Below, one piece after another: positions 2,130 to 32,341 of a stretch of DNA of 32,457 bases (position 1 is the first letter of the stretch; every line of letters begins with the position of its first letter). Origin of the DNA: an uncultured Bacilli bacterium (GTDB taxonomy: Bacteria; Bacillota_I; Bacilli_A; RF39; UBA660); contig CALVKM010000011.1 in assembly GCA_944332705.1 (NCBI GenBank), positions 1 through 32,457 of the forward strand, given 5' to 3'. The notes under the pieces are model-generated. The model made no database searches. It had not been told where the DNA came from and saw nothing but the letters and a program-made list of their open reading frames with translations. The position numbers and the translations under genes are program-made.

Positions 2130-3185
2130 TTATTTAGTTATAATCTTTAAATCATTTATTTTTAAAATGCCTTCTAACTCATTATTCTTTTTAAATATTG
2201 TATAACATATTTCCGTAATTTCTTCTAAAGAATCAGTATAATCACTTAAATTAATTTTTATTTTTTTATTATTTAATAATAATTCTTTAGATAAATTATT
2301 ACCATTACTTAGTTTTATTTCAAAATTAAGTAATATATTATCACTGGTATTAATATCAAGTTCTAAATAAGTAGTATCTTTATTATATTTTTCTAAATTA
2401 AGATAATTATTATGAAAATTATAATACATCATTACAAATGCATCATCTTTATCTTTCTTTTTAAAAGAATAATTAATATTTTCATCTATACTTAATTTAC
2501 CACCATTTTCTACCTTTAATAAATACTCACTTTTTAAAATTACTGGTTCGATAAATTCATCATAACTTATATTTAGATTTTCTTTTTTTATTTCTTCAAC
2601 CTTGATACTTTCTTGACCACTTTTTGTATCTACAAAAGAAAAAATACAATATAATTTTTTATCATTTGATGTAAGTAAACTATAAATAGCTTTATACCAA
2701 AAAGTTTCATTCAAAGAAACTTCTAAATTCCATAAAGAATTTTTTAGCATTATGGGCATATAGTATTCTTTAGGTTCTAATATATTCATTGAAATTTCAC
2801 TATCATATAAAACAAAAGTAGCTTTCATATCACAAATAGCTTTACCTCTATTTTTAAATGATATTTTAATATTTTCTAAATCACATATTATTTCTTTATT
2901 AAATTTGACATCATCAAGTCTCCAGAAAAGATTGATAGTAAGAAAAGTCGTCATTAAAGCAACAGATATAATACCAATCATTGCTAGAATATTTTGAATG
3001 ATGGCATCTCCCTCTAAAGCTCCATAACCAATGGTATAAAGAAAATAAAGGCCTGTTTCACTAATTAGTTCAGCAGGAGTTATAACTCCCGCAAATAATT
3101 TATATAAGCTAAATAAAAAACATATTACAAACATCAATATAATAAATACCACTACTGTATTAATAATCTTTTTTAACTTTAACAT
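2130..3185 (-). CDS. Putative KirBac-like two-TM potassium channel with extra C-terminal beta domain
   Basis: The 351-residue protein has one membrane helix (about 8-31), a re-entrant segment ending in the potassium selectivity signature TIGYG (51-55), and a second helix (about 62-88) containing a Gly (71). That is the TM1-pore-TM2 layout of simple K+ channels. Next comes a beta-rich cytosolic region (about 93-205) beginning VKFNKEIIC and ending near FSFVDTKSGQES, laid out like the Ig-like domain of prokaryotic inward rectifiers. The remaining residues (about 215-351) form a second predicted beta domain ending in EICYTIFKKN and LKINDLKI, resembling CIA30/carbohydrate-binding jelly-rolls. The usual Kir N-terminal slide helix is missing: only about seven residues precede TM1. 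It starts five bases after the tsaC stop, so it is co-transcribed. The channel call rests on the filter and topology; the tail is inferred from strand pattern only. Confidence 0.62.
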   Translation of the reverse strand: MLKLKKIINTVVVFIILMFVICFLFSLYKLFAGVITPAELISETGLYFLYTIGYGALEGDAIIQNILAMIGIISVALMTTFLTINLFWRLDDVKFNKEIICDLENIKISFKNRGKAICDMKATFVLYDSEISMNILEPKEYYMPIMLKNSLWNLEVSLNETFWYKAIYSLLTSNDKKLYCIFSFVDTKSGQESIKVEEIKKENLNISYDEFIEPVILKSEYLLKVENGGKLSIDENINYSFKKKDKDDAFVMMYYNFHNNYLNLEKYNKDTTYLELDINTSDNILLNFEIKLSNGNNLSKELLLNNKKIKINLSDYTDSLEEITEICYTIFKKNNELEGILKINDLKIITK

Positions 3186-3190
3186 AATTC

Positions 3191-3817
3191 CTACTTTCTA
3201 ATAACTTCTTCTATATTCTCTTTACTTATAATACCATTTCTTAATATATTTACTTCATTATCTTTTATTTGAGCAACAGTTGATGCGAGTAAATTACTAC
3301 TAATATTTCCTTTTATAAATATATCAACATAACTAGCTAAATCATTTATAATATCTTCAATATTACTATTATTAACACTTCCTGATATATTAGCACTAGA
3401 TGTCGCTAGAGGATAATCTATACTTTTTAAAATACTTAAAGCAATTTCATGATTAGGTATTCTTACTCCAACAGTATCGCTGTTTGCCGTAACTAGATTG
3501 CTAATACAATCTTTCTTTTTTAAAATTAAAGTTATTGGCCCCGGCATAAATTTTTTAATTACTTTTTCTTCATAATCACTCACATAAGCAATATCTTTAA
3601 TTTTATTAATATCACTAAGCATCAAACTAAAAGGTTTAGAATAATCCCTTTTTTTAGCTTGAAATAATTTATCAATTACTTCCACCTTTAAAGCATTCCC
3701 CGCTATCCCAAAAACGGTTTCCGTGGGAAAAACTATTAATTTATCTTCATCTAAAGCCTTTGTTACAATTCTTAATTCATCTTCATTTATTTCATTAGTC
3801 CAATCAAATACTTGCAT
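3191..3817 (-). CDS. tsaC: L-threonylcarbamoyladenylate synthase (TsaC/YrdC family)
   Basis: It makes threonylcarbamoyl-AMP from threonine, bicarbonate and ATP, the first step of t6A37 tRNA modification. The 208-residue protein is a single YrdC domain with PTETVFGI (31-38), the KKRDYSKPF motif (about 56-63), PGPITLIL (92-99), TVGVRIP (115-121) and ATSSANISG (138-146). The C-terminal Sua5 domain is absent, so it is the short TsaC form. ATG at 3817 has an AAGGAAAG ribosome binding site and overlaps the end of the upstream gene by 14 bases, implying translational coupling. It ends in TAG five bases before the channel gene. No tsaB, tsaD or tsaE is in the window. Confidence 0.93.
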   Translation of the reverse strand: MQVFDWTNEINEDELRIVTKALDEDKLIVFPTETVFGIAGNALKVEVIDKLFQAKKRDYSKPFSLMLSDINKIKDIAYVSDYEEKVIKKFMPGPITLILKKKDCISNLVTANSDTVGVRIPNHEIALSILKSIDYPLATSSANISGSVNNSNIEDIINDLASYVDIFIKGNISSNLLASTVAQIKDNEVNILRNGIISKENIEEVIRK

Positions 3818-4607
3818 TATTATCTTTCCTTACCAAACTCATGCCTTTAGAATCTTTATTCATTTTATATAATATATTATTTAATAAATCAATCACTTGA
3901 ATTGTATGTAATTTACCAACTAAATTATATATTGTTTCATAATCTAATATACTACAAAGATCTTTTATTTCCCCTAAAAAATTATTATATAAATAACAGT
4001 CTTCTAAATTAAATAATTTTAAATCAATACTAATTATTAAATCTTCTATTTCTTTAGTGGCATTTAATACTTTTAGTTTATTTATAAGCTCACTAACTAT
4101 CTGCGGATATGATTTTAAAGCTTCTATTTCTAAAAACTCTTTAATAAATGCCGCATCACTACCATCTAGAACAATTAAAGACATCATATCTAATGGAGCA
4201 TTTGGCAAATATTTAGCATAATCATAAAAATATGTATAATTTGCAGAACCAGAAGCAAACAAAAAACTAAATATTTCTTCATCATGATTTTTTAAAATAT
4301 ATTTGGCATACCGATAAATATATTCAGAATCATTGGTATTTAATAAAGCTTGTTTAAATCTATCATCTACTCCCACATAGGAATAGCAATACATATAAAT
4401 GATTCTACTACTACCCCATTTAAGTATCTTATCATCCATTTCAGGACTTCTTAAACTTGGAATAAATCTAAGACAATTATAAATATCATCACAAGAAAGA
4501 GCACTAATATGAGCTTTTAATTCATTATCTATAGATATTATTCCTAAATTTACTAAACTACTTAAAAAAACCCAATTTTTATCCTTTACTATCTCACTTA
4601 TATTCAT
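3804..4607 (-). CDS. Uncharacterised helical-repeat-like protein
   Basis: I do not recognise this 267-residue protein. It has no membrane segment or signal peptide and looks alpha-helical, with recurring short patterns such as LLNTNDSEYIYRYAKYI (about 86-102) and LIVLDGSDAAFIKEFLEI (about 143-160), suggesting a weak solenoid. It ends in TGA; a TAA follows in frame three codons later. ATG at 4607 has a GTGAGG ribosome binding site, and a TGATACAAT extended -10 lies just upstream. It is the first gene of the operon with tsaC (14-base overlap) and the channel. The tnpB element lies directly upstream. No function is assigned. Confidence 0.75.
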   Translation of the reverse strand: MNISEIVKDKNWVFLSSLVNLGIISIDNELKAHISALSCDDIYNCLRFIPSLRSPEMDDKILKWGSSRIIYMYCYSYVGVDDRFKQALLNTNDSEYIYRYAKYILKNHDEEIFSFLFASGSANYTYFYDYAKYLPNAPLDMMSLIVLDGSDAAFIKEFLEIEALKSYPQIVSELINKLKVLNATKEIEDLIISIDLKLFNLEDCYLYNNFLGEIKDLCSILDYETIYNLVGKLHTIQVIDLLNNILYKMNKDSKGMSLVRKDNNASI

Positions 4608-4789: not shown

Positions 4790-5914
4790 TTATACTAAAC
4801 TTCGCATATATATTTTTAATCCTTCAAACATTATATTAATACTAGCATTGATATCTCGGTCATGTATATATCCACATTTTGGACATTCCCACTTTCTTAT
4901 ACTTAAATCTTTTAACTTCTTATTTTGATATTCACATACACTACATATTTGACTACTTGGATAATATCTATTTATTGTATATAATTTTTTATTTTGCCAA
5001 AGGCACTTGTATTCCAAGACTCGTTTTATTTCAGCTAGGGGAATATTGACTAAATGTTTAGCTATACTTTTTGTTTGATACATTGCTTTAATATCTAAAT
5101 CTTCCATTACTATAATATCATTATCTTTAATTATTTTATTTGTTATATCATGGATTAAATGCTTACGGATGTTTTATAGTTTCATATATGCTCGTTTTAT
5201 TTTTAATTTTATTTTCTCTCTACTCTTGCTTCCTTTTTGACATCTTGCAAGAGCCTTTTGTAAGCCCTTCATTCGTTTATTAATATTTGCACATTCTAGG
5301 TTGTTTTCTATCTTTTCATTATGATTAGTTATTATTAAATCTTTTATTCCTAAATCTAGTCCTACGATACTTCTAGGTTGAAATGGAACTAATATTAGTG
5401 GTTCTTCTACTAATACACTTACATAATACTTAAGTCCTTCTCTTCTTATAACTGCACTTTTTATATTACCTATATGATATACTTCTTTTAACTTTGGTAA
5501 TGTAATTGTCCTATTTTTTAAATCTATTTTTATACTTTCATAGTTTTTACCTTTATAAGTATTTTTAATATTATTGGTTTTATAACTATTACCAGTATCT
5601 TTATTTTTAAATTTAGGAAATCCATTATTTTGACTAAAAAATCTATGGTATGCATCTTCTAGATTAAATGAAGCTACTCTTAAACTGCAACTATCTACTT
5701 CTTTTAACCATGGATAATCTTTACATAATTCTGGTATTTCTTTTATTTGTTCATAACAAGTTAAAGTTCTACCTGTTTTTTTATATTCATTTATTCGTTC
5801 TTCTAAAAAATGATTATATATAAATCTAGAACAACCAATGGTTTGATTGATTAACTTTTTTTGTTCATTGTTTGGATATAAACTAAATTGATAACCTTTT
5901 AAAATAGTAGTCAT
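4790..5914 (-). pseudogene. tnpB: RNA-guided endonuclease TnpB, interrupted by one in-frame stop
   Basis: The frame encodes an about 373-residue TnpB, the RNA-guided nuclease of IS605 elements. The N-terminal part (5174-5914, 246 residues) holds the wedge/REC region and the first RuvC Asp in GLDLGIKDL. A TAA at 5174-5176 then stops translation. Reading on in the same frame gives NIRKHLIHDITNK, then IIVMEDLDI with the RuvC Glu, the zinc-ribbon cysteines (CSVC and CPKC) and the last RuvC Asp in HDRDINAS. So all three catalytic acids and the zinc finger survive and the lesion is a single nonsense codon, not a frameshift; the lost residue was plausibly Tyr. An ATG at 5107 opens the C-terminal part but has no ribosome binding site. 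The start at 5914 has an AAGGAGG site and a strong promoter. Confidence 0.88.
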
Positions 5915-5967: not shown

Positions 5968-6010
5968 TAATTTTATTTAAAAAAGTATAACTTTCCTATT
6001 ATATAAAGAA

Positions 6011-6035
6011 AAAGAACATATTATACTTGTTCTTT
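6011..6035 (-). terminator. Intrinsic terminator of the Clp ATPase gene
   Basis: AAAGAACA and TGTTCTTT pair over eight bases around a nine-base loop, and on the minus strand the hairpin leads into TTCTTT. It overlaps the last codons and stop codon (6021-6023). Confidence 0.6.
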
Positions 6036-8120
6036 AACTTTATTTTTTTCAATATATTTATCTAATCCCCTAAAACCTTGTTTTTGATAATCATAATTAG
6101 ATATATCAACATTAGTTACATTATGTTGTTTTAAATAATTATTTATATCATCAATAGTTATATCTTTATATTCCACAATAGTATTAAATCTAGCTATAAA
6201 TTCTTTACTAAAAGCATGATTATATGTTAATTTAGAATCCATAAAACCAATTTTTTTATTGCCTTTTATATTGCTAGTAGCAAATATATATGTATTTTTA
6301 AAATTAATTTTCTCTCCCTTAGCATTGGTTATTATTCCTTCATCTAAAATTTGTAAAAATAAGTTCAAAACACTTGGAGATGCTTTTTCTATTTCATCAA
6401 TTAATATACATGTATATGGCTCCATTTTAATTTTATCAAATAAACTGCCATCTTCATAGCCGATGTATCCCGCAGTTGAACCTATAAGACGAGTTATAGA
6501 TATTTCACTATTATATTCACTCATATCAAGTTTTAATAAAGGCATATTAAAATACTTAACAATTTCTTTAACAGTTTTAGTTTTACCAACACCAGTTGAA
6601 CCAGTAAGCATTATAGATAAAGGCATATCTGTGTTGTGATTTTGCATTGTATCTACAATTGTTTCTATAGCTTCCTTTTGAGCGAATATATTATTATTTA
6701 AATAGTCTTTTAAATTTTTAAAATCACATTTTAATAATGGTATATTATACTTACGATGCAAAAGAGTAATTATATCTTTATGAGTTATTTTAACCAATTG
6801 ATTATTTAATTTGTTTATTTTATTAGCAATATTTATTTCTTGATTATGTAAAAATAAAGCTTTTTTAAAATCATTAATCTTTACCATTTCTTCTTTTTCT
6901 TCTATAATCTTTTTTTCTTTGTTTTTTAAATTATTTATTTTATTAAAAGTATTATTATCCACTTCCTTCATGGCACATACAGAATCAAGAACATCTAAAG
7001 ATTTATCAGGATTTCTTTTATCAATAACATATCTATTAGTTAAAGTAACTATATCTTTGATATTATCTTTAGTTATTTTAATATTGTAATGTAATTCATA
7101 ACTGTTTTTTACCTCATTTAAAATATTAATAGTTTCTTCTTCAGTTGGTTCTAATATACGTATTAATTCAAATCTTCTATTTAAAGCTTTATCTTTTATA
7201 ATAAATTTATTATATTCTTCAGTTGTTGTTGCCCCGATGACTTTTACTTTACCACGAGCTAAATAAGGCTTTAAAATATCACTAGCATTAATAGCCCCTT
7301 CAGCTCCACCAGCATTAACCATAGTATGTATTTCATCAATAAATAAAATTATCTCCGGATTATTTTCTAATTCTCTAATGAGTTTAGTTAGTTTTTCTTC
7401 AAATTCACCGCGATATTTTGTTCCGGCGACTAAGGTTCCCATTTCTAACATAACAATTTTTTTATCTTGTAATGAAGATGGAACCATTTTATTTTTAATA
7501 CGTCTTGTTAATTCTTCTACTATGGCTGTTTTACCTACTCCCGCATCTCCAACAAGTAAAGGATTATTTTTATTCTTTCTTATTAAAGTTTCAATAATTA
7601 AAGATATTTCTTTATCACGACCTATAACTTGTTCTGTCATATCTATGCTATCCATTAAATTTTTACCAATATTATAAATTTCTAACTTTTTATTATTTTT
7701 CTTAGTATTTTCTTTTAATTCATCATATAACTTTTCTAAATTTATATCCATACCATATAGCAATCTAATAGCTATTCCTTCGCCTTCTTCAAGTAAGGCT
7801 TTAAATAAATGTAAAGCATTAAGTTCTTCTTTCTTTTCACTAGCCTCTTCCAAACTTAAATTAATAATTCTTTTAAGTAATGGCGTATATAAAATGTAGG
7901 TACTCTTTTTAGAAGAAGAACCTACAACTAAAATAAGTTCTTTTTTAAAGTTATCATATGTTAAATCATATTTTTTAGCTATATTACTAATTGTAGTAGA
8001 ATTTTTTAATAAACTAAGCAGCAAGTGTTCACTACCAACATAAGGATGGTTTAATTCAAGCATTTCTCCTTCAGCACATTTAAATATTTTACTAATTTCT
8101 AAACTATATTTATCAAACAT
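6021..8120 (-). CDS. ClpC-like AAA+ unfoldase, ATP-dependent Clp protease ATP-binding subunit
   Basis: This is a two-ring HSP100 unfoldase that would feed proteins to ClpP in the cytosol. Order of parts: double Clp N-domain (1-140); AAA D1 with Walker A GDAGVGKT (191-198), Walker B ILFIDE (258-263) and Arg finger around 315; a short coiled linker with a UVR-like segment (about 410-440), as in ClpC rather than ClpB; and D2 with Walker A GSTGVGKT (507-514) and Walker B CILIDE (571-576). An IGF tripeptide (624-626) sits where ClpC and ClpX carry their ClpP-docking loop. At 699 residues it is about 100 shorter than usual ClpC: the D2 small domain is only some 40 residues, and the sensor-2 GAR motif reads GFR (682-684). 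ATG at 8120 has a GGGGAGGATT site. It follows orf217 by 36 bases. No clpP or mcsAB is nearby. Confidence 0.88.
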   Translation of the reverse strand: MFDKYSLEISKIFKCAEGEMLELNHPYVGSEHLLLSLLKNSTTISNIAKKYDLTYDNFKKELILVVGSSSKKSTYILYTPLLKRIINLSLEEASEKKEELNALHLFKALLEEGEGIAIRLLYGMDINLEKLYDELKENTKKNNKKLEIYNIGKNLMDSIDMTEQVIGRDKEISLIIETLIRKNKNNPLLVGDAGVGKTAIVEELTRRIKNKMVPSSLQDKKIVMLEMGTLVAGTKYRGEFEEKLTKLIRELENNPEIILFIDEIHTMVNAGGAEGAINASDILKPYLARGKVKVIGATTTEEYNKFIIKDKALNRRFELIRILEPTEEETINILNEVKNSYELHYNIKITKDNIKDIVTLTNRYVIDKRNPDKSLDVLDSVCAMKEVDNNTFNKINNLKNKEKKIIEEKEEMVKINDFKKALFLHNQEINIANKINKLNNQLVKITHKDIITLLHRKYNIPLLKCDFKNLKDYLNNNIFAQKEAIETIVDTMQNHNTDMPLSIMLTGSTGVGKTKTVKEIVKYFNMPLLKLDMSEYNSEISITRLIGSTAGYIGYEDGSLFDKIKMEPYTCILIDEIEKASPSVLNLFLQILDEGIITNAKGEKINFKNTYIFATSNIKGNKKIGFMDSKLTYNHAFSKEFIARFNTIVEYKDITIDDINNYLKQHNVTNVDISNYDYQKQGFRGLDKYIEKNKVKEQV

Positions 8121-8862: not shown

Positions 8863-10635
8863 TTACATATAAGTTACTACTGTAAATAATACAAGTAGAA
8901 TTATAAGCATGCCTACAACAAATAACCAAATGTATTTTAACCATGACTTATAGTCTATTTTCATAAGTGAAAGACCGATAATTAAAATAGCACTGGTTGG
9001 CAAGAATAATTGAACAAGGCCATACATTGATGTATAAATCGCATGTACTAATGGGAAATTGTCTGTATAAACAGTAGTTAGGAAGCCACCAACTGCATAG
9101 GAAGTGTAACCTAAATCTGGACTAAATACAGATCCTATAATAGCACATAATGATGTAATAAATGGATTAAATCCTTCAACTAAATTGAATAGCCAATTAC
9201 AAATTGTTGATGTAAATGGAATACTTACAATAATGCCAAATACCATGTATGATGCCACAAATAATAATGCTGGTTTAACCATTTTCTTAACACCATTATA
9301 AAAGCCTTCGATAAATTCATCAACTTTCACGCGATATAAGAATGCTAGTATAATTGCCACTAAAATGAAGACACTACATAATAAGAATACATAGTCAAAA
9401 TTTCCAAAAGCAGTTGCTCTTTGACCTAGAAGATAACTAATAATTGTAAAATCTTCTACTGGAGCAAGTGTAGTTAACCATTCATGGAATTCATTAAATA
9501 TGGTAATTCCAAAGTAATCACCCCATGATATATAACCAAGAATTACAATTACTAAAAGTAATAATAATACTATAGCTGTTGGCAGAGCATTCTTCTTCTT
9601 TGATGTTTCTACTGTAAATGGATCGTCAGTAATTTCACTGTTTTTAGTATTTTTCTTTGTTTCACTTAAAACCTTTTTAAGACGCATGCAAATGAAGAAA
9701 TTATATAAAACTATTGTAACAGCAGCAATAATATAACGGTAATTCAAACCAGTTGTCATATATGTTGTGTTACCATAAATATAGTAATTAAAGTTACTAA
9801 TTCCTTCAGTACCAAATGTTGCCCCAAGAATACCTACAAGTATAGAACCAAAGGTTACAATAAATGCCGATAATTTATCCAAATTCATCTTTAGTAATAC
9901 ACTAATGAAGAACGGAACAAATGTTAGAGCAATAAAAGTTTGGGAAAACAAAGATGTTATTACAAATAGAAATACTGATGTTATAACAGAGAATACAATA
10001 GTATGTTTCTTGCATTTTTCAGCAATTACTGTAACTAATCTTTGATAGCCACTAACTTTAGATAAAACGCCATATACACCAGCTAGAACAAATAGATAAA
10101 CTACTTTATCCATAGTGTAATATAGAGCATTATACATTGATATACTAATATCGATTAAACCAACACGACCCATGCCATAATCATAAAAATCGCCGCCATT
10201 AAATTGACCATATGGTATAACCCAAGTAAATAATACAGCAGTTAGTACCATAAATAATATCGATTTAGTTAAACGATGATTATCAGCAGTGATAGAAATC
10301 ATTAAACCACCGACTAAAAAGAATACCAATGCAAGTGATTTTAAAATTAATAAAGAATCAGTTTCGGTAACAAAAATTGCTGCAGCTATTAAAGCACATG
10401 ATAAAGCAATTAAAGTTGCCCCAGTTAAACCAACTTTAGTTAGTTTTTCTTTTAAGTTTTTAAACATAAGTAAATAAATACCTATAACTAAGAAAACTGA
10501 ACCAATGATTTTTAAAACCATATCTGGAGTTGTTGCATCTACAAAGTAAGATACAGCTAATAAAATAACAGCTATTACATCCATTAAAGCTCCAATGCAT
10601 TTTAACATCCCATGTTTTTCAAATATCTTTAACAT
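8863..10635 (-). CDS. YfcC-type ion-transporter superfamily carrier with four-helix N-terminal extension
   Basis: A 590-residue integral membrane protein with about 15 hydrophobic helices. The part from about 125 onward resembles the carrier at 10725-12173: both contain a WGDxxxxTIFxxFxxWLT segment and the bulky loop before it. This places it in the YfcC/DcuC-like ion transporter superfamily (secondary carriers of amino acids or dicarboxylates). Residues 1-120 add four compact helices not found in the neighbour, making it about 108 residues longer. ATG at 10635 has a TAAGGAGG site. It has its own extended -10 promoter and terminators on both sides, so it can be expressed apart from arcABC. 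The substrate cannot be read from sequence; arginine, ornithine or a peptide-derived solute are plausible given the neighbours. Confidence 0.78.
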   Translation of the reverse strand: MLKIFEKHGMLKCIGALMDVIAVILLAVSYFVDATTPDMVLKIIGSVFLVIGIYLLMFKNLKEKLTKVGLTGATLIALSCALIAAAIFVTETDSLLILKSLALVFFLVGGLMISITADNHRLTKSILFMVLTAVLFTWVIPYGQFNGGDFYDYGMGRVGLIDISISMYNALYYTMDKVVYLFVLAGVYGVLSKVSGYQRLVTVIAEKCKKHTIVFSVITSVFLFVITSLFSQTFIALTFVPFFISVLLKMNLDKLSAFIVTFGSILVGILGATFGTEGISNFNYYIYGNTTYMTTGLNYRYIIAAVTIVLYNFFICMRLKKVLSETKKNTKNSEITDDPFTVETSKKKNALPTAIVLLLLLVIVILGYISWGDYFGITIFNEFHEWLTTLAPVEDFTIISYLLGQRATAFGNFDYVFLLCSVFILVAIILAFLYRVKVDEFIEGFYNGVKKMVKPALLFVASYMVFGIIVSIPFTSTICNWLFNLVEGFNPFITSLCAIIGSVFSPDLGYTSYAVGGFLTTVYTDNFPLVHAIYTSMYGLVQLFLPTSAILIIGLSLMKIDYKSWLKYIWLFVVGMLIILLVLFTVVTYM

Positions 10636-10655
10636 TTTTTTACCTCCTTAACAAA

Positions 10656-10664
10656 ATTATAACA
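10656..10664 (-). promoter_or_regulatory. Extended -10 promoter of the distal YfcC carrier
   Basis: TGT-TATAAT on the minus strand is a perfect extended -10, 21 bases before the start codon and just behind the terminator at 10677-10702. The -35 position holds only a T-run. Confidence 0.6.
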
Positions 10665-10676
10665 CTCTAGCAAAAG

Positions 10677-10702
10677 AAAAAAAAGCAAATATTGCTTTTT
10701 TT
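10677..10702 (-). terminator. Terminator between the two YfcC carrier genes
   Basis: GCAA and TTGC flanked by A- and T-runs form a long AT-rich hairpin (AAAAAAGCAA / TTGCTTTTTT) that ends in eight T on the minus strand. It lies 23 bases after the proximal carrier's stop and probably ends the arc transcript. It is almost symmetrical. Confidence 0.75.
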
Positions 10703-10724
10703 CACAGTTTTTCTAACTTTTTAT

Positions 10725-12173
10725 CTAAAATACTAAGGTTATTAACTCTAAAACTAACATATTGGCAACAGCAATAGTTAAAACTATTTTAAATGCCCAT
10801 TTAAACCAAGTTGTATATTCAACTTTAGCTAAGGCAAGGCCTCCCATTATTGCTCCACAAGTTGGAGTAATTAAATTAACTAAACCATTGGCAGCAACAA
10901 AAGTCATAATTGTAACTTCGACACTATAACCTAAAGTGCTTGCAAGACCACCCATGATTGGAGTTGATAAAACAGCTAGACCACTTGATGAAGGTACTAA
11001 AATTGATAATACAACATGCAGTAAGTAATTTAGTGGCACAAAGGCTAGTTCTGGTAAGTTAGATAGCCAGTCCGCGGCATTATAGATTATGTAGTTATCT
11101 AAATGAGTTACTCCCATTAGAACGCTTGCTCCACGAGCAACAGCAATAATTAAAATAACTGCAATCATATCATTAGCGCCATCAATAAAGGTATCAACAA
11201 TTTCTTTTTCTTTAAAGCGATTGATTATACCAATAATTATTGCCATAACGAAGAACCAAACTGAGGCTTCCGCAAAATACCAACCACCTAAAGGTGTTCC
11301 AGTAAGCCAGCCAGTAAATTTATCAAATATTGTAACATTGAAATCTCCCCAAGGGATGAAACCAATAATCATAACAATAAATGTTAAACCTAGTAATATT
11401 AAAGTTATTTTTTGTTTGCCACTTAATTTTACATCTTTTTTCTTATCTTTTGCTCCTTCAATTTCGGCCGCAAATTTCTTTTCCATGGCTTTTTGTTCTT
11501 GAAGTGAAAGAAAAGTTGAACCTTTATCATCTTGAACTTTTTTAGCATAATTCATGACAAAGATAATTGATATTATCAAAGTTGTAATCCATAAAATTAG
11601 TCCTGTAAATATTAGCAAGCCTTGATTGGCTCCAACACCTTCAGGCAAACTACTTACTGCAACACCTACAGCAAATGGATTAACGGTTGAACCAAGAACA
11701 CCAGAACCAGCTCCTAGTAAAACTATGGCTGAACCTACTAAAGTATCCATGCCAGCAGCAACCATTGTGGCGGCCAGTAAAACATAAAATCCAACTGTTT
11801 CTTCAAGCATGCCATAAGTTGTACCCCCAACAGAAAAGATAAACATTAAAATAGGAATTAAAACTATTTCGTTACCTTTTAGTTTTTTAACTAAAACTTT
11901 AATACCAGTTTCTAAGGCACCAGTTTTAGTAATAATTGCCAAAAACCCACCTAGAATAAGAATAAATATACACACATCTACCGCATCGGCAAAACCTAGA
12001 ATTGGTGATAGTAAAAAGTCTGATAGTTTAGCACCAACTGTACCACTACCATCAACCAAAACACCATCAACAAACTCTGCATTTGGTAAAACGTGTGATA
12101 GTATCGCTAAGGCAATTATCAATATAAAGATAATTGAGAAAGCCGATAACATAAATTTTTTTCTTTTGGCCAT
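10725..12173 (-). CDS. YfcC-family carrier, probable arginine/ornithine exchanger of the arc operon
   Basis: A 482-residue polytopic membrane protein of the YfcC family (ion transporter superfamily). Hydrophobic helices fill most of the sequence, with a charged cytosolic loop at about 215-255 (MEKKFAAEIEGAKDKKKD). Motifs seen include SVGGTTYGMLEET (about 114-126), GAGSGVLGSTVNPFAVG (about 154-170) and a second-half counterpart around PSSSGLAVLSTP (about 396-407) and TPTCGAIMGG, the hairpin-like repeats of this fold. It starts one base after the arcC stop with a GTAGGAGG site, so it is part of arcABC. In ADI operons the carrier here exchanges arginine for ornithine; classical ArcD belongs to another superfamily, so the substrate is inferred from context. 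Confidence 0.85.
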   Translation of the reverse strand: MAKRKKFMLSAFSIIFILIIALAILSHVLPNAEFVDGVLVDGSGTVGAKLSDFLLSPILGFADAVDVCIFILILGGFLAIITKTGALETGIKVLVKKLKGNEIVLIPILMFIFSVGGTTYGMLEETVGFYVLLAATMVAAGMDTLVGSAIVLLGAGSGVLGSTVNPFAVGVAVSSLPEGVGANQGLLIFTGLILWITTLIISIIFVMNYAKKVQDDKGSTFLSLQEQKAMEKKFAAEIEGAKDKKKDVKLSGKQKITLILLGLTFIVMIIGFIPWGDFNVTIFDKFTGWLTGTPLGGWYFAEASVWFFVMAIIIGIINRFKEKEIVDTFIDGANDMIAVILIIAVARGASVLMGVTHLDNYIIYNAADWLSNLPELAFVPLNYLLHVVLSILVPSSSGLAVLSTPIMGGLASTLGYSVEVTIMTFVAANGLVNLITPTCGAIMGGLALAKVEYTTWFKWAFKIVLTIAVANMLVLELITLVF

Positions 12174-12174
12174 A

Positions 12175-13110
12175 TTATTTTCCTCCTACAATTTTCGTAC
12201 CAATATTATCTTCAAAAGCAATCCCTGCATTTTCTAGTGATGAAATTATTGCTTCTTTTTGGGAGTTTTCTACAAATTCGATGCAAGCTTCTACTTTTGG
12301 TAGCATACTACCTTTAGCAAATTCATTTGTTTTAATGTAGTTTTTAGCTTCATCCACGGTCATTTTTGATATACCTTTTTCTTTATCAGTGCCAAAATTT
12401 AAATATACTTTATCAATTGAAGTTAATATTAATAACTTATCAGCATCAATTAATTTAGCAAGTAAGGCACTAGATAAATCTTTATCAATTACTGCATCAA
12501 CTCCTTCTAACAATTCATGTTTATCATTTTTAATGACTGGAATTCCACCTCCTCCACAAGCAATAACTACAATGCCAGAATCTATTAATTTGGCAATTGC
12601 TTTTTTTTCAATTATGTCTATAGGTTTAGGAGATGCTACTACTCTTCTATAACCCCTACCAGCATCTTCCATAAATGTATAACCCTTTTCTTTTTCCTCT
12701 TTCTTAGCTTCTTCTAAATCATAAAAAGCACCAATTGGCTTAGTAGGATTTTTAAAAGCGGGATCAGAGGCATCAACTAAGACTTGAGTTATAAGCGTTA
12801 CACAATCTTTTTTTATCTTCTGTCTTTCTAATTCATCTTGCAAAGCTTGTTGTAATTGATAACCAATATAGCCTTGAGACATACTACCACATTCAGCAAA
12901 AGGCATAATTGGAGTATCAACTTTACTACTTGCATATTCCATTGCTAGAGATATTTGTCCAACTTGGGGACCATTACCATGAGTTAAAACTATTTCATTA
13001 CCATCTTTAATTAATTTAACAATTATTTTGGCAACACGTTCTAATCTATCCATTTGCTCTTCGGGAGTATTACCTAAGGCATTACCTCCAAGGGCTATTA
13101 CTATTTTCAT
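12175..13110 (-). CDS. arcC: Carbamate kinase
   Basis: It transfers phosphate from carbamoyl phosphate to ADP, giving ATP, CO2 and ammonia: the energy-yielding last step of the arginine deiminase pathway. The 311-residue amino-acid-kinase-fold protein has the N-terminal VIALGGNAL (4-12), [11 protein letters not shown] (42-52), the mid-region ACGGGGIPV, and a C-terminal GSMLPKVEA with the conserved Lys. Length is normal. ATG at 13110 has a GGAGG site and lies inside arcB, overlapping its end by 29 bases, so the two are translationally coupled. The carrier gene follows after one base. Confidence 0.96.
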
Positions 13111-14101
13111 TATTACCTCCTAAAGTGGCATACATAACAGCTTTTATTGTATGCATTCTATTTTCTGCTTCATCAAATACTTTAGATTTATCCATTCTAA
13201 ATACTTCATCAGTTACTTCCATTTCCCTTAAGCCAAATTTTTCATAAATATCTTTACCAATAGTGGTATTTAAATCATGAAATGATGGTAAACAATGCAA
13301 GAATATAGCACTTTCTTTAGCGTGCGATAAAACATCGCTATTTACTTGATATTTCTTTAGTAAATTAATTCTTTCTTCCCAAACACTATCCGCTTCTCCC
13401 ATGGATACCCAAACATCAGTATAGAAGACATCCGCATCTTTAACAGCAGAATATATATCTTCATTAAATTCAATAATTGATCCAGTAGACAAAGCAATAT
13501 CTTTACAAATATTAACTAAGTTTTCATCTGGCCACAAACTTTTTGGAGCCGCCAAGGAAAAGTTAACACCTAATTTAGCACTAGCAACCATTAGGGAATT
13601 AGCAACATTATTGCGTCCATCACCACAAAATACTAACTTTAATCCTTTGAGGGTGCCAAAATTTTCTTTAATAGTTAGAAAATCAGCAAGCATTTGGGTT
13701 GGATGAAATTCATTAGTTAGACCATTCCACACTGGTACACCTGCATTTTTGGCTAAATTTTCAACAATACTTTGATCAAATCCCCGATATTCTATGCCAT
13801 CATACATTCGTCCTAGTACTTTCGCAGTATCTTCAATACTTTCTTTTTTGCCCATTTGACTAGCTGCGGGATCTAGAAATGTTACATGCATTCCCAAATC
13901 ATAAGCCGCAACTTCAAAAGCACATCTTGTTCTTGTTGAAGTTTTTTCAAATAAAAGAGCAATATTTTTTCCTTTTAAATATTCATGAGGAATATTATTT
14001 TTCTTTTTATTTTTAAAATCCGCACTTAAATCTAATAGATACTCAATTTCTTCTGTAGTATAATCTAGTAGTTTTAAAAAATTTCGTCCTTTTAAGTTCA
14101 T
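13082..14101 (-). CDS. arcB: Ornithine carbamoyltransferase, catabolic
   Basis: In this pathway it splits citrulline with phosphate into ornithine and carbamoyl phosphate. The 339-residue protein has the carbamoyl-phosphate loop STRTR (55-59), HPTQ (133-136), the ornithine-binding D229 and SMG loop (233-235), and the catalytic HCLP (269-272). The SMG loop argues for ornithine over putrescine or agmatine carbamoyltransferases. Start ATG 14099-14101 overlaps the arcA stop as TAATG, with a GGGAGG site inside arcA. Its last 29 bases overlap arcC. The catabolic direction is inferred from the operon; no argG, argH or argC is present. Confidence 0.96.
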
Positions 14102-15342
14102 TAGTCCTCCCTATATAGTGGCATACTCATACATCTTGGACCACCACGACCGCGTGAAAGTTCAGCACTAGCCATTTCGATAACTTTAATACCATGAGCT
14201 CTTAAAACTTCATTAGTTATATTATTACGATTATAAACAACTACTACTCCTGGAGCAATACATAATGTATTTGTGCCATCATTCCATTGTTCTCTTTGAC
14301 TAGCTACATCATCTCCTCCAGCACAAGGAATTAAAGTTACTTTTAAACCTAAATAATGACTCAATATGTTTTCTAGAGAATCATTTATCTCGCGAACATT
14401 TAAATCTTCATCACTATTAGGATCATTTCCTTCAGTTATTTCAAATACTTGCAAGGTTTTCATAATTCCAGGATGATAAGTAAATTTATCAACATCTATT
14501 TGGGTAAATACTGTATCAAGATGCATAAATGCCCTGGACTCAGGAATATTGAAAGCTAATACAGTATCTATACTGCAACTTGGATTTTTAAATAAATTTT
14601 TAGCTAGTTTATCAATAGCTCCCGCTTCGGTTCTTTGAGATATTCCAACTGCTAAAATGTGGTCATTTAAATTTAGAACATCCCCACCTTCAATATGCCA
14701 ATCATAGTCCCTATCATAATATTTTTCTATTTCTCCTTTAAATTTAGGATGATATTTAAAAATATAATCCGCATAGATAGTTTCTCTTCTGCGAGTTTCT
14801 GAATACATTTTATTTAAAACTATGCCACTACCAACACTAGCAAAAGGATCTCTAGTAAAATACAAATTAGGCATAGGTTCAACAATAAAATCAGTTTCCG
14901 CTGTAACTAAATCTACTAAAGATTTTTCCATAATTCTTTTACTACGATCTAGTTCATAAATTTGGACACCTTCCATAGTTTTTAAAACAAATTCTTTAGT
15001 TTCTTCAATACCCATTAAGTATTCATAAACTAAATCACGATATTTTGGAGTATTTACTCCAGCTTCAGCGATAAATTGCCTTAAGAATTTAGGCTTAATT
15101 TCCGGATTATAATCCAGAGTTTCAGCCATTAAATCCTCCAAATAATAAACTTTGATGTCATTGTCCCTTAAAATTTGGACAAATTCATCATGTTCCGCCT
15201 GGGCTACTTTTAAATAAGGAATGTCATCAAAAAGCAACCGATGTAATGTATCGGGAGTCAAATTGAGTAATTCCTTGCCTGGGCGATGAACTAAGACTTC
15301 TTTTAAAGGTTTAATTTCGCTTTTTACATTAATTTCACTCAT
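14101..15342 (-). CDS. arcA: Arginine deiminase
   Basis: It hydrolyses L-arginine to citrulline and ammonia, the first step of the ADI pathway. The 413-residue protein has the normal length and the family motifs: TRDPF (163-167), the catalytic Glu/His positions in HIEGGD (216-221) and MHLDTVFT (273-280), and the C-terminal nucleophile Cys404 in [13 protein letters not shown] at 15342 has a TAAGGAGG site. It follows the ABC ATPase gene by 44 bases with no terminator. An AT-rich TATAAT-like stretch lies in that gap, so an internal promoter is possible. Tight coupling to arcB (TAATG) and arcC makes this the core of an arginine-fermentation operon. Confidence 0.97.
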
Positions 15343-28922: not shown

Positions 28923-31900
28923 TTACACTTTAAACAATCTATTTTTCTTTCTTAAAATAATATTGCCTATAACAACAATTATTAAAGCTCCAACAAGTAA
29001 AATAATACTCAATCTAGTACCCGTACTAGGATTATTAGGTATTTCTTCTGAAGTTATTTTAACTATTACTTCATTACTTAAAATTTCATCATCATTAACT
29101 ATTAATGTTGCGGTATTAGGTATTTCCTCTAGTTCAGTATCCTCCTTAACTTTAGCAGTTATTTCAATAACTACCTCTTCATTAGGAAGTAAAGAAATAA
29201 TCCAAGAATAAATGCCATCATTAATTGTAGTATTTGCACTATCAATTATTTCTAAATTCTCATTAAATATATCTTCTACTCTTATATTATCAACAGCAAC
29301 ACTACTTTCATTCTTAATTTTAATGTAATATTTAAATTCTTCATCAACCATTACTAAATCTTTACTTACCTGTTTAGTAATAGATAATTTATAATCAACA
29401 ACTAAAACATCAACTTCATCCCTAATACTTGGTTTATCATCATATGTAGCTTCAACATAATTAGTAATTATATCACCACTATTCTTATTATTTACTCTTA
29501 CTTTAACATTAAATCTTACTGTTTCATTTACTGCAATATTATCTATTTGCCAATTTAGGGTATTATCAACCACATTACAATTATCACAAGCTAATATTTC
29601 TAAATCACTGTCAAAAGTATCAACAACATTAATATTACTAGCAACAGCTGTTCCATTATTAGTAATAGTTATTGTATAGTTAAATTCTTCATTATTGACA
29701 ACCTGGTATTTATCACTACTTTTTTCTATAACTAAATTAGAATCAATTATAGTTATATCTACATCACTATCAAGTTCTAAATTCGGGGTTGTAAGAGTAG
29801 CAATATTATTAATAATCTCATCTTTTGGAGCATTACTATTAACCCGAGCATTAATAGTTATACTAAATTCTTCATTTGGATTTAATGTATCAATTCTAAA
29901 TTCATTATTACTTATAATATTTATTCTATCACTACTTGGAATTGCTTCTAAAAAGGTTATATAATCTGGAGTTAAATCACTAATAACAACATCACTAACT
30001 GAAGCATCGCCATTATTACCAAAAGTTATAGTATAACTAAATTCTTCATTTGGTCTTAAAGTATTTTTAGATACACTTTTAACTAAATATACATCTGATG
30101 CTATAATTACTACATCTTCATCATCACTTATCTCTTCATCATCATGTGTTACTACAACAGTATTCTTTATAGTTGTATTATTAGATACATTTTCTTTAGC
30201 TTTTATAACAACCTCAAAAGATACTTGATCAAAAGCTGGAATACTCTCAACCATCCAAGAGATTTGATTGTTTTCAACTATTCCCGAATCACTATCAACA
30301 ATATCTAATAATTCATTAATGGCATCAGTTACATAAACTCTATCACTAGCAATAGAACCATCATTATAAACCACTATATTATAACTAAATTCTTCTCCAA
30401 TTTCATATATTGCTGGATTATCATTCACTGTTTTTTCTACTCTTAATATTGGTTTTCTTACGATTACTTCTTCTTCATCACTGATACTTGGTTTTCCTGT
30501 TTCTGTTAAAGTAACAACATTATTAATTGTAGTATTATCACTAGCACTTTTTCTAGCCTTTACAGTAATAGTAAAATTCTTCTCATCTTGAGCTGCTAAA
30601 GAAGGTATTGTCCAAGTTATAGTTTGACCATTAATTGCAGCATTTGGAGCTGAAATTATTTCTAAATATGAATCAATGACATCAGTTATAATTATATTAT
30701 TACTTGGAGCACTACCATTATTAAATACTCTAATATTATAGGTAAATTCTTCATTTGGTCTAACTACACTTTTATTAACCGTTTTTTCTATTGTAACATT
30801 TGAATCTACTACATTTACATTTACTTCATCTTCTAAAGGTTGTTCATCTTCTTCAGTAAGGACTACAACATTTTTTATTACTGAATCTGCTTGAACATTA
30901 TCATTTACTCGCACAACTATTTCATAAGTATTAACTTCATCTGGAGAAAGACTAGAAACTTCCCAAGTTAAAGTATTTCCTGAAATGCTTGCCCCTTCTG
31001 CTTTAATTACTGTAAGTCTTGAATCAATGGTATCTGTGATAGTTATAGAATCACTAAAAGCATCACCAGTATTACCAAATTCAATATAATAACTAAATTC
31101 TTCTCCAGGTCTAAGAGTTGTCTTACTAGCACTTTTAGCAACATAAACATCATCATCAACTACTGTTACATCATCACTAGCTTGAACATCTTCGTGATTT
31201 GTGGCACTAACTGTGGCAACATTAATAAAATTTTGTAGTTCTGCATCTTCATTTGCTCGCAGAGTTATAGTAATCGTCTCTTTAGATTCTTTAGTTAAAT
31301 CTCCAAGTTCAAATACCAAATTATTACCCGTACCACTATTTTCATGACTAGTACTAACAATTGTAAAGTTAGAATCGATTGTATCTCTAACAATTACATC
31401 ATAAGCGGTAGCATCACGATTATCAACAGTTATAGCATAAGTAAATGTATCTCCTCTTTTAACAAAATCAGCACTTGCTTCTTTAGTAATACTCAAACTA
31501 GGTTTTAATATACCAAGTTCATAATCATCACTTTTTTCTTTATCACCAACTGTAATACTGGAAGTATTTAATATGGTATTTCCCGTTGCATCAATTAACC
31601 TAACTTTGACATATATAGTTTTTTCTTCACCAACCCCTAAAGAATCTAGAGTATAAGTTATGGTATTACCGCTGCGATTTCCCGAAATATCTTTAAAATC
31701 AACATCTAGCACTTCTAATTCACTAGGTATTTGGTCAATAAAATTAATTGTATCAGTTGGTATAGGACTAGTATTTTGAATAGTTATTTTATAATAAAAT
31801 TCTTCGTTAAACTCAACATTATCTAAACCAACTAAAGAATCTGTACTTGCAATAGCACTTTTAGTAATATCAACATCATTAGTTGAAACTAAATCCCTTA

Positions 31901-32315
31901 AAGCATTAAATTTCAAAGTACAATCTTCTGTATAATCAGGATCCGCATATTGCGAAACTACTCTTGCAAAATAAACTTTACCATCACTACTAGTATATAC
32001 ATCATTAGAAATAAAACTAAAAGATTTTTCATCCATATCAATATATTCCGCATAAAAATTACCAGAACTTTCAATTTCTAAAACATTAAGGTCAATTTCT
32101 TCATAAGTTCCTTCGATATGATTAATCTCTTCATTAGCACTAATCGTAAAATAAACATTATAAATATGATAAATACTTCCATCATCATCCCTAATAGTTT
32201 CAATATCCGCTCCAAGATTAACCGCTGCATCAGCTTTAGAAATATTTCTAATTATAAAAACACTAATAATTGCTAATATAAAAATTATTCCAATTATTAT
32301 TTTACGCCAGTTCAT
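28923..32315 (-). CDS. Secreted DUF11-repeat surface protein with NPSTG sorting-type C-terminus
   Basis: A 1130-residue exported protein. It has an N-terminal hydrophobic signal (about 5-22) ending near SKADA-AV, a distinct domain (about 30-147), then eight tandem DUF11-like beta domains of about 115 residues (to about 1080). Each begins with a strand such as SITKEAS, YVAKSAS or TIEKTVN, followed by GEEFSYxIxxxNxG, a TDxxD turn and a closing INxxxLT segment. The C-terminus is NPSTG (1095-1099), a hydrophobic helix and RKKNRLFKV, the layout of a sortase signal with N in place of L. ATG at 32315 follows TGGTGG; the upstream GTG codons at 32327 and 32324 belong to that site. Likely an adhesin or stalk. 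The gene is monocistronic, with a promoter at 32342-32370 and a strong terminator. Confidence 0.9.
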   Translation of the reverse strand: MNWRKIIIGIIFILAIISVFIIRNISKADAAVNLGADIETIRDDDGSIYHIYNVYFTISANEEINHIEGTYEEIDLNVLEIESSGNFYAEYIDMDEKSFSFISNDVYTSSDGKVYFARVVSQYADPDYTEDCTLKFNALRDLVSTNDVDITKSAIASTDSLVGLDNVEFNEEFYYKITIQNTSPIPTDTINFIDQIPSELEVLDVDFKDISGNRSGNTITYTLDSLGVGEEKTIYVKVRLIDATGNTILNTSSITVGDKEKSDDYELGILKPSLSITKEASADFVKRGDTFTYAITVDNRDATAYDVIVRDTIDSNFTIVSTSHENSGTGNNLVFELGDLTKESKETITITLRANEDAELQNFINVATVSATNHEDVQASDDVTVVDDDVYVAKSASKTTLRPGEEFSYYIEFGNTGDAFSDSITITDTIDSRLTVIKAEGASISGNTLTWEVSSLSPDEVNTYEIVVRVNDNVQADSVIKNVVVLTEEDEQPLEDEVNVNVVDSNVTIEKTVNKSVVRPNEEFTYNIRVFNNGSAPSNNIIITDVIDSYLEIISAPNAAINGQTITWTIPSLAAQDEKNFTITVKARKSASDNTTINNVVTLTETGKPSISDEEEVIVRKPILRVEKTVNDNPAIYEIGEEFSYNIVVYNDGSIASDRVYVTDAINELLDIVDSDSGIVENNQISWMVESIPAFDQVSFEVVIKAKENVSNNTTIKNTVVVTHDDEEISDDEDVVIIASDVYLVKSVSKNTLRPNEEFSYTITFGNNGDASVSDVVISDLTPDYITFLEAIPSSDRINIISNNEFRIDTLNPNEEFSITINARVNSNAPKDEIINNIATLTTPNLELDSDVDITIIDSNLVIEKSSDKYQVVNNEEFNYTITITNNGTAVASNINVVDTFDSDLEILACDNCNVVDNTLNWQIDNIAVNETVRFNVKVRVNNKNSGDIITNYVEATYDDKPSIRDEVDVLVVDYKLSITKQVSKDLVMVDEEFKYYIKIKNESSVAVDNIRVEDIFNENLEIIDSANTTINDGIYSWIISLLPNEEVVIEITAKVKEDTELEEIPNTATLIVNDDEILSNEVIVKITSEEIPNNPSTGTRLSIILLVGALIIVVIGNIILRKKNRLFKV

Positions 32316-32341
32316 TAATACCACCACACTATTATATTATT

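Follow-up and report, generated by a model that had tools for sequence, protein, structure and literature searches.

The window, the whole stretch of 32,457 nucleotides analysed here, carries a gene for a protein predicted to join the pore of a two-helix K+ channel to a cytosolic beta domain resembling that of Kir channels and to a C-terminal jelly roll of the CBM11/CIA30 type. We lean towards the view that this protein forms a homotetrameric, Kir-like two-helix K+ channel in which the cytosolic jelly roll gates the pore. The pore can be called a K+ channel pore with confidence and the beta domain only Kir-like, because the profile signal comes from the pore, whereas beyond it the likeness to Kir rests on fold and collinearity. 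The features on which the argument draws are as follows.

2130..3185 (stop codon included), minus strand: whole gene, predicted Kir-like K+ channel with a C-terminal jelly roll (open reading frame, homologues, purifying selection)
3093..3182, minus strand: TM1, helix residues 2-31, with the basic N-cap MLKLKKI and no preceding slide helix (AlphaFold2 model, hydropathy, charge bias)
3021..3077, minus strand: pore helix, residues 37-51, and selectivity filter TIGYG, residues 51-55 (AlphaFold2 model; GYG invariant in 22 sequences)
2925..3005, minus strand: TM2, residues 61-87 (AlphaFold2 model, alignment, hhalign register)
2571..2909, minus strand: Kir-like cytosolic beta domain, residues 93-205 (AlphaFold2 model, Foldseek and VIA-align comparison with Kir, profile alignment)
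2133..2555, minus strand: C-terminal jelly roll of CBM11/CIA30-type fold, residues 211-351 (separate model, structure matches)
3191..3817, minus strand: tsaC/Sua5 (tRNA t6A modification), upstream neighbour, not counted as part of the system (PF01300, E 5.7e-52; synteny)

A conserved gene with a patchy distribution

The channel reading frame begins with ATG and encodes 351 amino acids. Four codons before the start there is an in-frame stop, so the protein has no hidden longer N-terminus and begins with TM1. The reading frame represents a genuine gene subject to purifying selection: homologues of 36-95% identity to the window protein occur in other genomes, and all 22 aligned homologues, down to the 34% identical one of Syntrophaceticus schinkii, keep both GYG and the three-part layout. 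Comparison with three close orthologues gave dN/dS values of 0.14, 0.15 and 0.26, and selection was strongest in the pore (0.015-0.12). An artefact or chance reading frame is therefore ruled out by the homologues together with the dN/dS values of 0.14-0.26.

The gene was found in 8 of 99 genomes searched, including the window's own, and a scan of public genomes yielded 24 loci that carry it. Nearly all carriers are metagenome-assembled genomes (MAGs) of uncultured Bacilli or Clostridia, among them Candidatus Ventrenecus avicola, and one is a named strain, S. schinkii Sp3. Since only 6 of the 30 genomes of the window's genus contain the gene and 24 are without it, its distribution in the genus is patchy; among 20 genomes searched near S. 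schinkii, S. schinkii itself was the only one with a homologue. No match was obtained in plasmids, phages or viral contigs, and a mobile or viral origin was set aside. In one MAG (locus L008, about 1490-2550; L031, about 5986-7046) the reading frame is broken within the jelly-roll part, and either the tail has been lost there or the assembly is wrong.

A pore homologous to K+ channel pores

An AlphaFold2 model of the full protein, built without templates from an alignment of 22 natural homologues, reached a pLDDT of 90 and showed TM1, a pore helix with filter, TM2, a beta domain and a second beta sandwich in this order. The T-I/V-GYG loop between two transmembrane helices, a feature of Kir membership, is present in the sequence, in the model and in the 22 homologues; GYG is invariant, and the two preceding positions are occupied only by T or S and then by I or V. 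Gly71 in TM2 is likewise invariant and lies at the Kir hinge position, and TM2 is followed by an invariant WR-x-DDV (residues 88-93). Also invariant among the aligned homologues is Tyr50, directly before the filter; KcsA and KirBac have Thr or Ala at the equivalent cavity-side position. In all sequences with an intact start, the N-terminal 12 residues carry a charge of +2 to +5, compared with 0 to -4 on the pore-loop side, a bias that supports an N-in/C-in topology in which both termini would be cytosolic. The pore can be assigned with confidence as homologous to K+ channel pores. The first-pass annotation had read TM1, a TIGYG pore loop and TM2 from the letters of the gene, and had proposed structure prediction with a Foldseek comparison as a check; in the model the filter indeed sits in a pore loop between transmembrane helices, and the tail matches beta jelly rolls.

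A cytosolic domain that is Kir-like by predicted fold

In the model, residues 93-199 form a beta domain with elements in the order E-E-E-E-E-H-E-E. The best Foldseek matches of the model were KirBac3.1 entries (E 3.3e-7, probability 1.00), and VIA-align superposed model residues 1-208 on Kir structures with Z scores of 9.6-10.8 (Kir7.1: Z 10.8, rmsd 7.2 Å, 193 residues; KirBac3.1: Z 9.8, rmsd 7.3 Å, 199 residues). Whole-chain superpositions on Kir had an rmsd of about 6-9 Å, and these high values indicate that the angle between pore and beta domain differs from that in Kir.

For comparison at the sequence level we used a KirBac profile of five sequences, namely KirBac3.1 (identical to 1xl4), KirBac1.1 and three plasmid-borne relatives. 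The hhalign match had an E-value of 4.5e-6 and paired filter with filter. When the parts were aligned separately, the pore by itself gave an E-value of about 8e-6, and no significant match was obtained for the cytosolic part (0.37, with 0.24 for a reversed control). The joint alignment is collinear over residues 21-191 of the window protein and 60-252 of KirBac3.1, with the stretches around N112, W152 and D186-x4-Q191 falling opposite N165, W212 and the D/H-x4-Q motif of KirBac. When the cytosolic columns were shuffled, none of the 120 resulting versions extended to residue 185, and the joint profile score did not fall. The Ig-like (E-set) domain expected after TM2 in a Kir protein is thus present by predicted fold, with the sequence alone not significant, and we regard the beta domain as probably Kir-like on the strength of that fold with modest sequence support. 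Of the KirBac-like cytosolic domain claimed in the first-pass annotation, the predicted fold and the collinearity stood up, and a significant profile match for the domain by itself did not; the proposed borders of 93-205 for this domain and 215-351 for the tail came close to those of the model (1-208 and 211-351).

The likeness to Kir channels (KirBac3.1; IRK; PDB 1xl4, 2wlj, 9pr6) consists of the same order of TM1, TIGYG pore loop, TM2 and cytosolic beta domain, together with the best Foldseek matches and the collinear profile alignment to KirBac3.1. In contrast to Kir, the window protein has neither a long N-terminus nor an amphipathic slide helix before TM1, as the first-pass annotation had noticed; the TM1 helix starts at residue 2, homologues share this start, and the Kir structural matches begin at KirBac3.1 residue 42-43. 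The RPxxR-type basic lipid-binding cluster after TM2 is also missing, and where KirBac sequences carry R-F-x-(R/K)-P the window family has the invariant WR-x-DDV. Further differences are the Tyr before the filter and the jelly roll in place of the last Kir hairpin, KirBac3.1 residues after about 268 having no counterpart. The profile register places a hydrophobic residue at the position of D172, the rectification aspartate of Kir2.1, so that strong rectification is not expected. The window protein matched no Pfam family at E up to 1, and IRK was absent among the 21 Pfam families listed for 22 members scanned at E up to 10. Pfam, NCBIfam and PHROGs offered no credible family for the channel protein, the PDB no credible match by sequence, and none of 296 genomes of the class contained a known Kir (PF01007) above the cut-off. 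Because slide helix, basic cluster and family models were all looked for and not found, the protein is Kir-like by predicted architecture and not a confirmed Kir member. Inward rectification is best treated as a candidate function, as is a ligand-sensing role for the tail.

A tail predicted to adopt a CBM11/CIA30-type jelly roll

Modelled alone, the tail reached a pLDDT of 93. Its best match was CBM11 of Clostridium thermocellum (1v0a; Z 13.4, 2.4 Å, 127 residues, 19% identity), and the likeness held for the full model and for the tail alone (Z 13.3-13.4), as did that to CIA30/NDUFAF1 (Z 12.2-12.7 to 7zkq and 7zkp); GH50 agarase modules were other near matches. The CIA30/CBM-type tail that had been suggested from the sequence is thus borne out as a fold (CBM11 Z 13.4, NDUFAF1 Z 12.7), but not as a profile match, the alignment to CBM11 being not significant. 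Neither CIA30 nor CBM_11 or any other CBM family was among the Pfam matches of 22 members at E up to 10.

Within the protein, conservation is lowest in the tail, where 6 of 146 positions are invariant. The fully invariant residues (F250, M252, E289, K291, E325 and C327) occupy alternate positions of three strands, which suggests that they form one conserved face in the modelled fold, and this face could line a cleft that accepts a peptide or a ligand other than that of CBM11. The beta-glucan-binding platform of CBM11 comprises Tyr22, Tyr53, Tyr129 and Tyr152. By-eye strand matching, for which the profile alignment is too weak to give a reliable mapping, suggests that the tail lacks the loop bearing Tyr129 and has Ile330 in place of Tyr152. 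The platform does not appear to be visibly kept, and the tail is for this reason a candidate sugar sensor at most; similarity in fold is no evidence that the ligand is the same. The tail thus resembles CBM11 (CtCBM11; PDB 1v0a, 6r31) in its jelly-roll fold, whereas CBM11 itself is part of a cellulosomal cellulase and the window tail is shorter, without Pfam match and probably cytosolic. With NDUFAF1/CIA30 (PDB 7zkq, 7zkp) it shares the beta-sandwich class, and NDUFAF1 too works on a membrane protein, but as a separate mitochondrial assembly factor that is not fused to a channel.

Proposed mechanism and alternative explanations

We propose that four subunits, each contributing TM1, a pore loop and TM2, would assemble around one K+-selective pore, that the beta domains after TM2 would enclose a Kir-type vestibule on the cytosolic side, and that a CBM11/CIA30-type jelly roll would hang from each subunit into the cytosol, replacing the last Kir beta hairpin. 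A ligand or protein segment in the cytosol could then bind the jelly roll, displacing the beta domains and thereby opening or closing the pore. As the protein lacks both the slide helix and the membrane-facing basic cluster of Kir channels, the invariant WR-x-DDV linker would transmit gating straight from the beta domains to TM2. That the protein represents an undescribed ligand-gated family of Kir architecture, in which the jelly roll senses a sugar, a nucleotide-sugar or a cell-wall precursor and, with no slide helix involved, regulates K+ flux directly, seems doubtful to us. We give an appreciable, though minor, chance to a Kir-like channel in which the jelly roll has a purely structural role or serves as a docking cleft for a neighbouring subunit or a partner protein. 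In NDUFAF1, a close fold match, the cleft holds a loop of another protein, ND3 (PMC10910544), and such a role would also agree with the apparent loss of the CBM11 sugar platform and with the finding that no gene is conserved beside the channel across subclades; however, the polar, invariant alternate-residue face of the tail (E289, K291, E325, C327, with T329) would suit a ligand site as well.

If a generic two-helix K+ channel had gained two beta sandwiches independently, the middle one resembling Kir only as an Ig-like (E-set) fold, this would account for a Kir profile signal that comes from the pore alone and for the arrestin-like (VPS26) and transglutaminase-like beta proteins that Foldseek returned at comparable E-values. 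We consider this unlikely, as a single Kir superposition spans both pore and beta domain (model 1-208, Z about 10) and the collinear alignment runs to residue 191 through N112, W152 and D-x4-Q (186-191); of the shuffled versions, 0 of 120 reached residue 185. Least probable of all is a channel-shaped but non-conducting protein that acts as a membrane-anchored receptor or scaffold. The invariant Tyr50 just before the filter is unusual and would fit such a role, yet GYG is invariant across very divergent homologues and the pore is where purifying selection is strongest.

Genomic neighbourhood and K+ uptake

The upstream neighbour of the channel gene is tsaC/Sua5, in agreement with the earlier proposal of co-transcription with a tRNA-modification gene as far as the identity of the neighbour is concerned; the linkage itself is confined to one subclade, and within it the spacing varies from 5 bp in the window to about 165 bp in two orthologues. 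In other subclades, inspection of open reading frames identified prfB, an rlmD-type methyltransferase, secG/rnr/eno, rnc and others beside the channel gene, and synteny comparison revealed no partner gene conserved across subclades. With neighbours differing in this way, a general functional operon with tsaC is ruled out. A 267-amino-acid protein without Pfam match (3804-4607, minus strand) is kept beside tsaC in the same subclade.

None of the 30 genomes of the window's genus contained TrkH/KtrB (PF02386) or Kup (PF02705), which the same searches detected in 11 of 14 and 6 of 14 control genomes, respectively. Kdp or KimA may also serve the genus, and most of its genomes are incomplete drafts, so the absence of TrkH/KtrB and Kup does not make the channel its sole route for K+. 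If it conducts, the channel would provide a K+ pathway in a genus without detected TrkH/KtrB or Kup, and would be a minimal natural Kir-like channel without slide helix, offering a direct test of the need for this helix in gating. We know of no earlier channel with a CBM-type domain as a possible cytosolic sensor, and a conducting protein would be the first such channel known. The literature searched, which gave partial coverage, likewise described no fusion of a Kir or prokaryotic K+ channel with a carbohydrate-binding module or CIA30, in keeping with the first-pass remark that no described bacterial inward rectifier with such a tail was known to its author. The extra domain, shaped like a sugar-binding module, suggests a mode of on/off switching of the predicted channel that is unstudied.

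Other features of the window

Elsewhere in the window, two reading frames on the minus strand (4790-5107 and 5174-5914) resemble a disrupted TnpB/OrfB-type transposon protein, with its N-terminal part and its zinc-ribbon part in separate frames. Inspection of open reading frames also pointed to an arginine deiminase pathway cluster at 8863-15342 (minus strand) with arcA, arcB, arcC and two ArcD/YfcC-like transporters. At 28923-32327, again on the minus strand, lies a surface protein of 1134 amino acids with eight DUF11 repeats (PF01345) and a sortase-like NPSTG tail.
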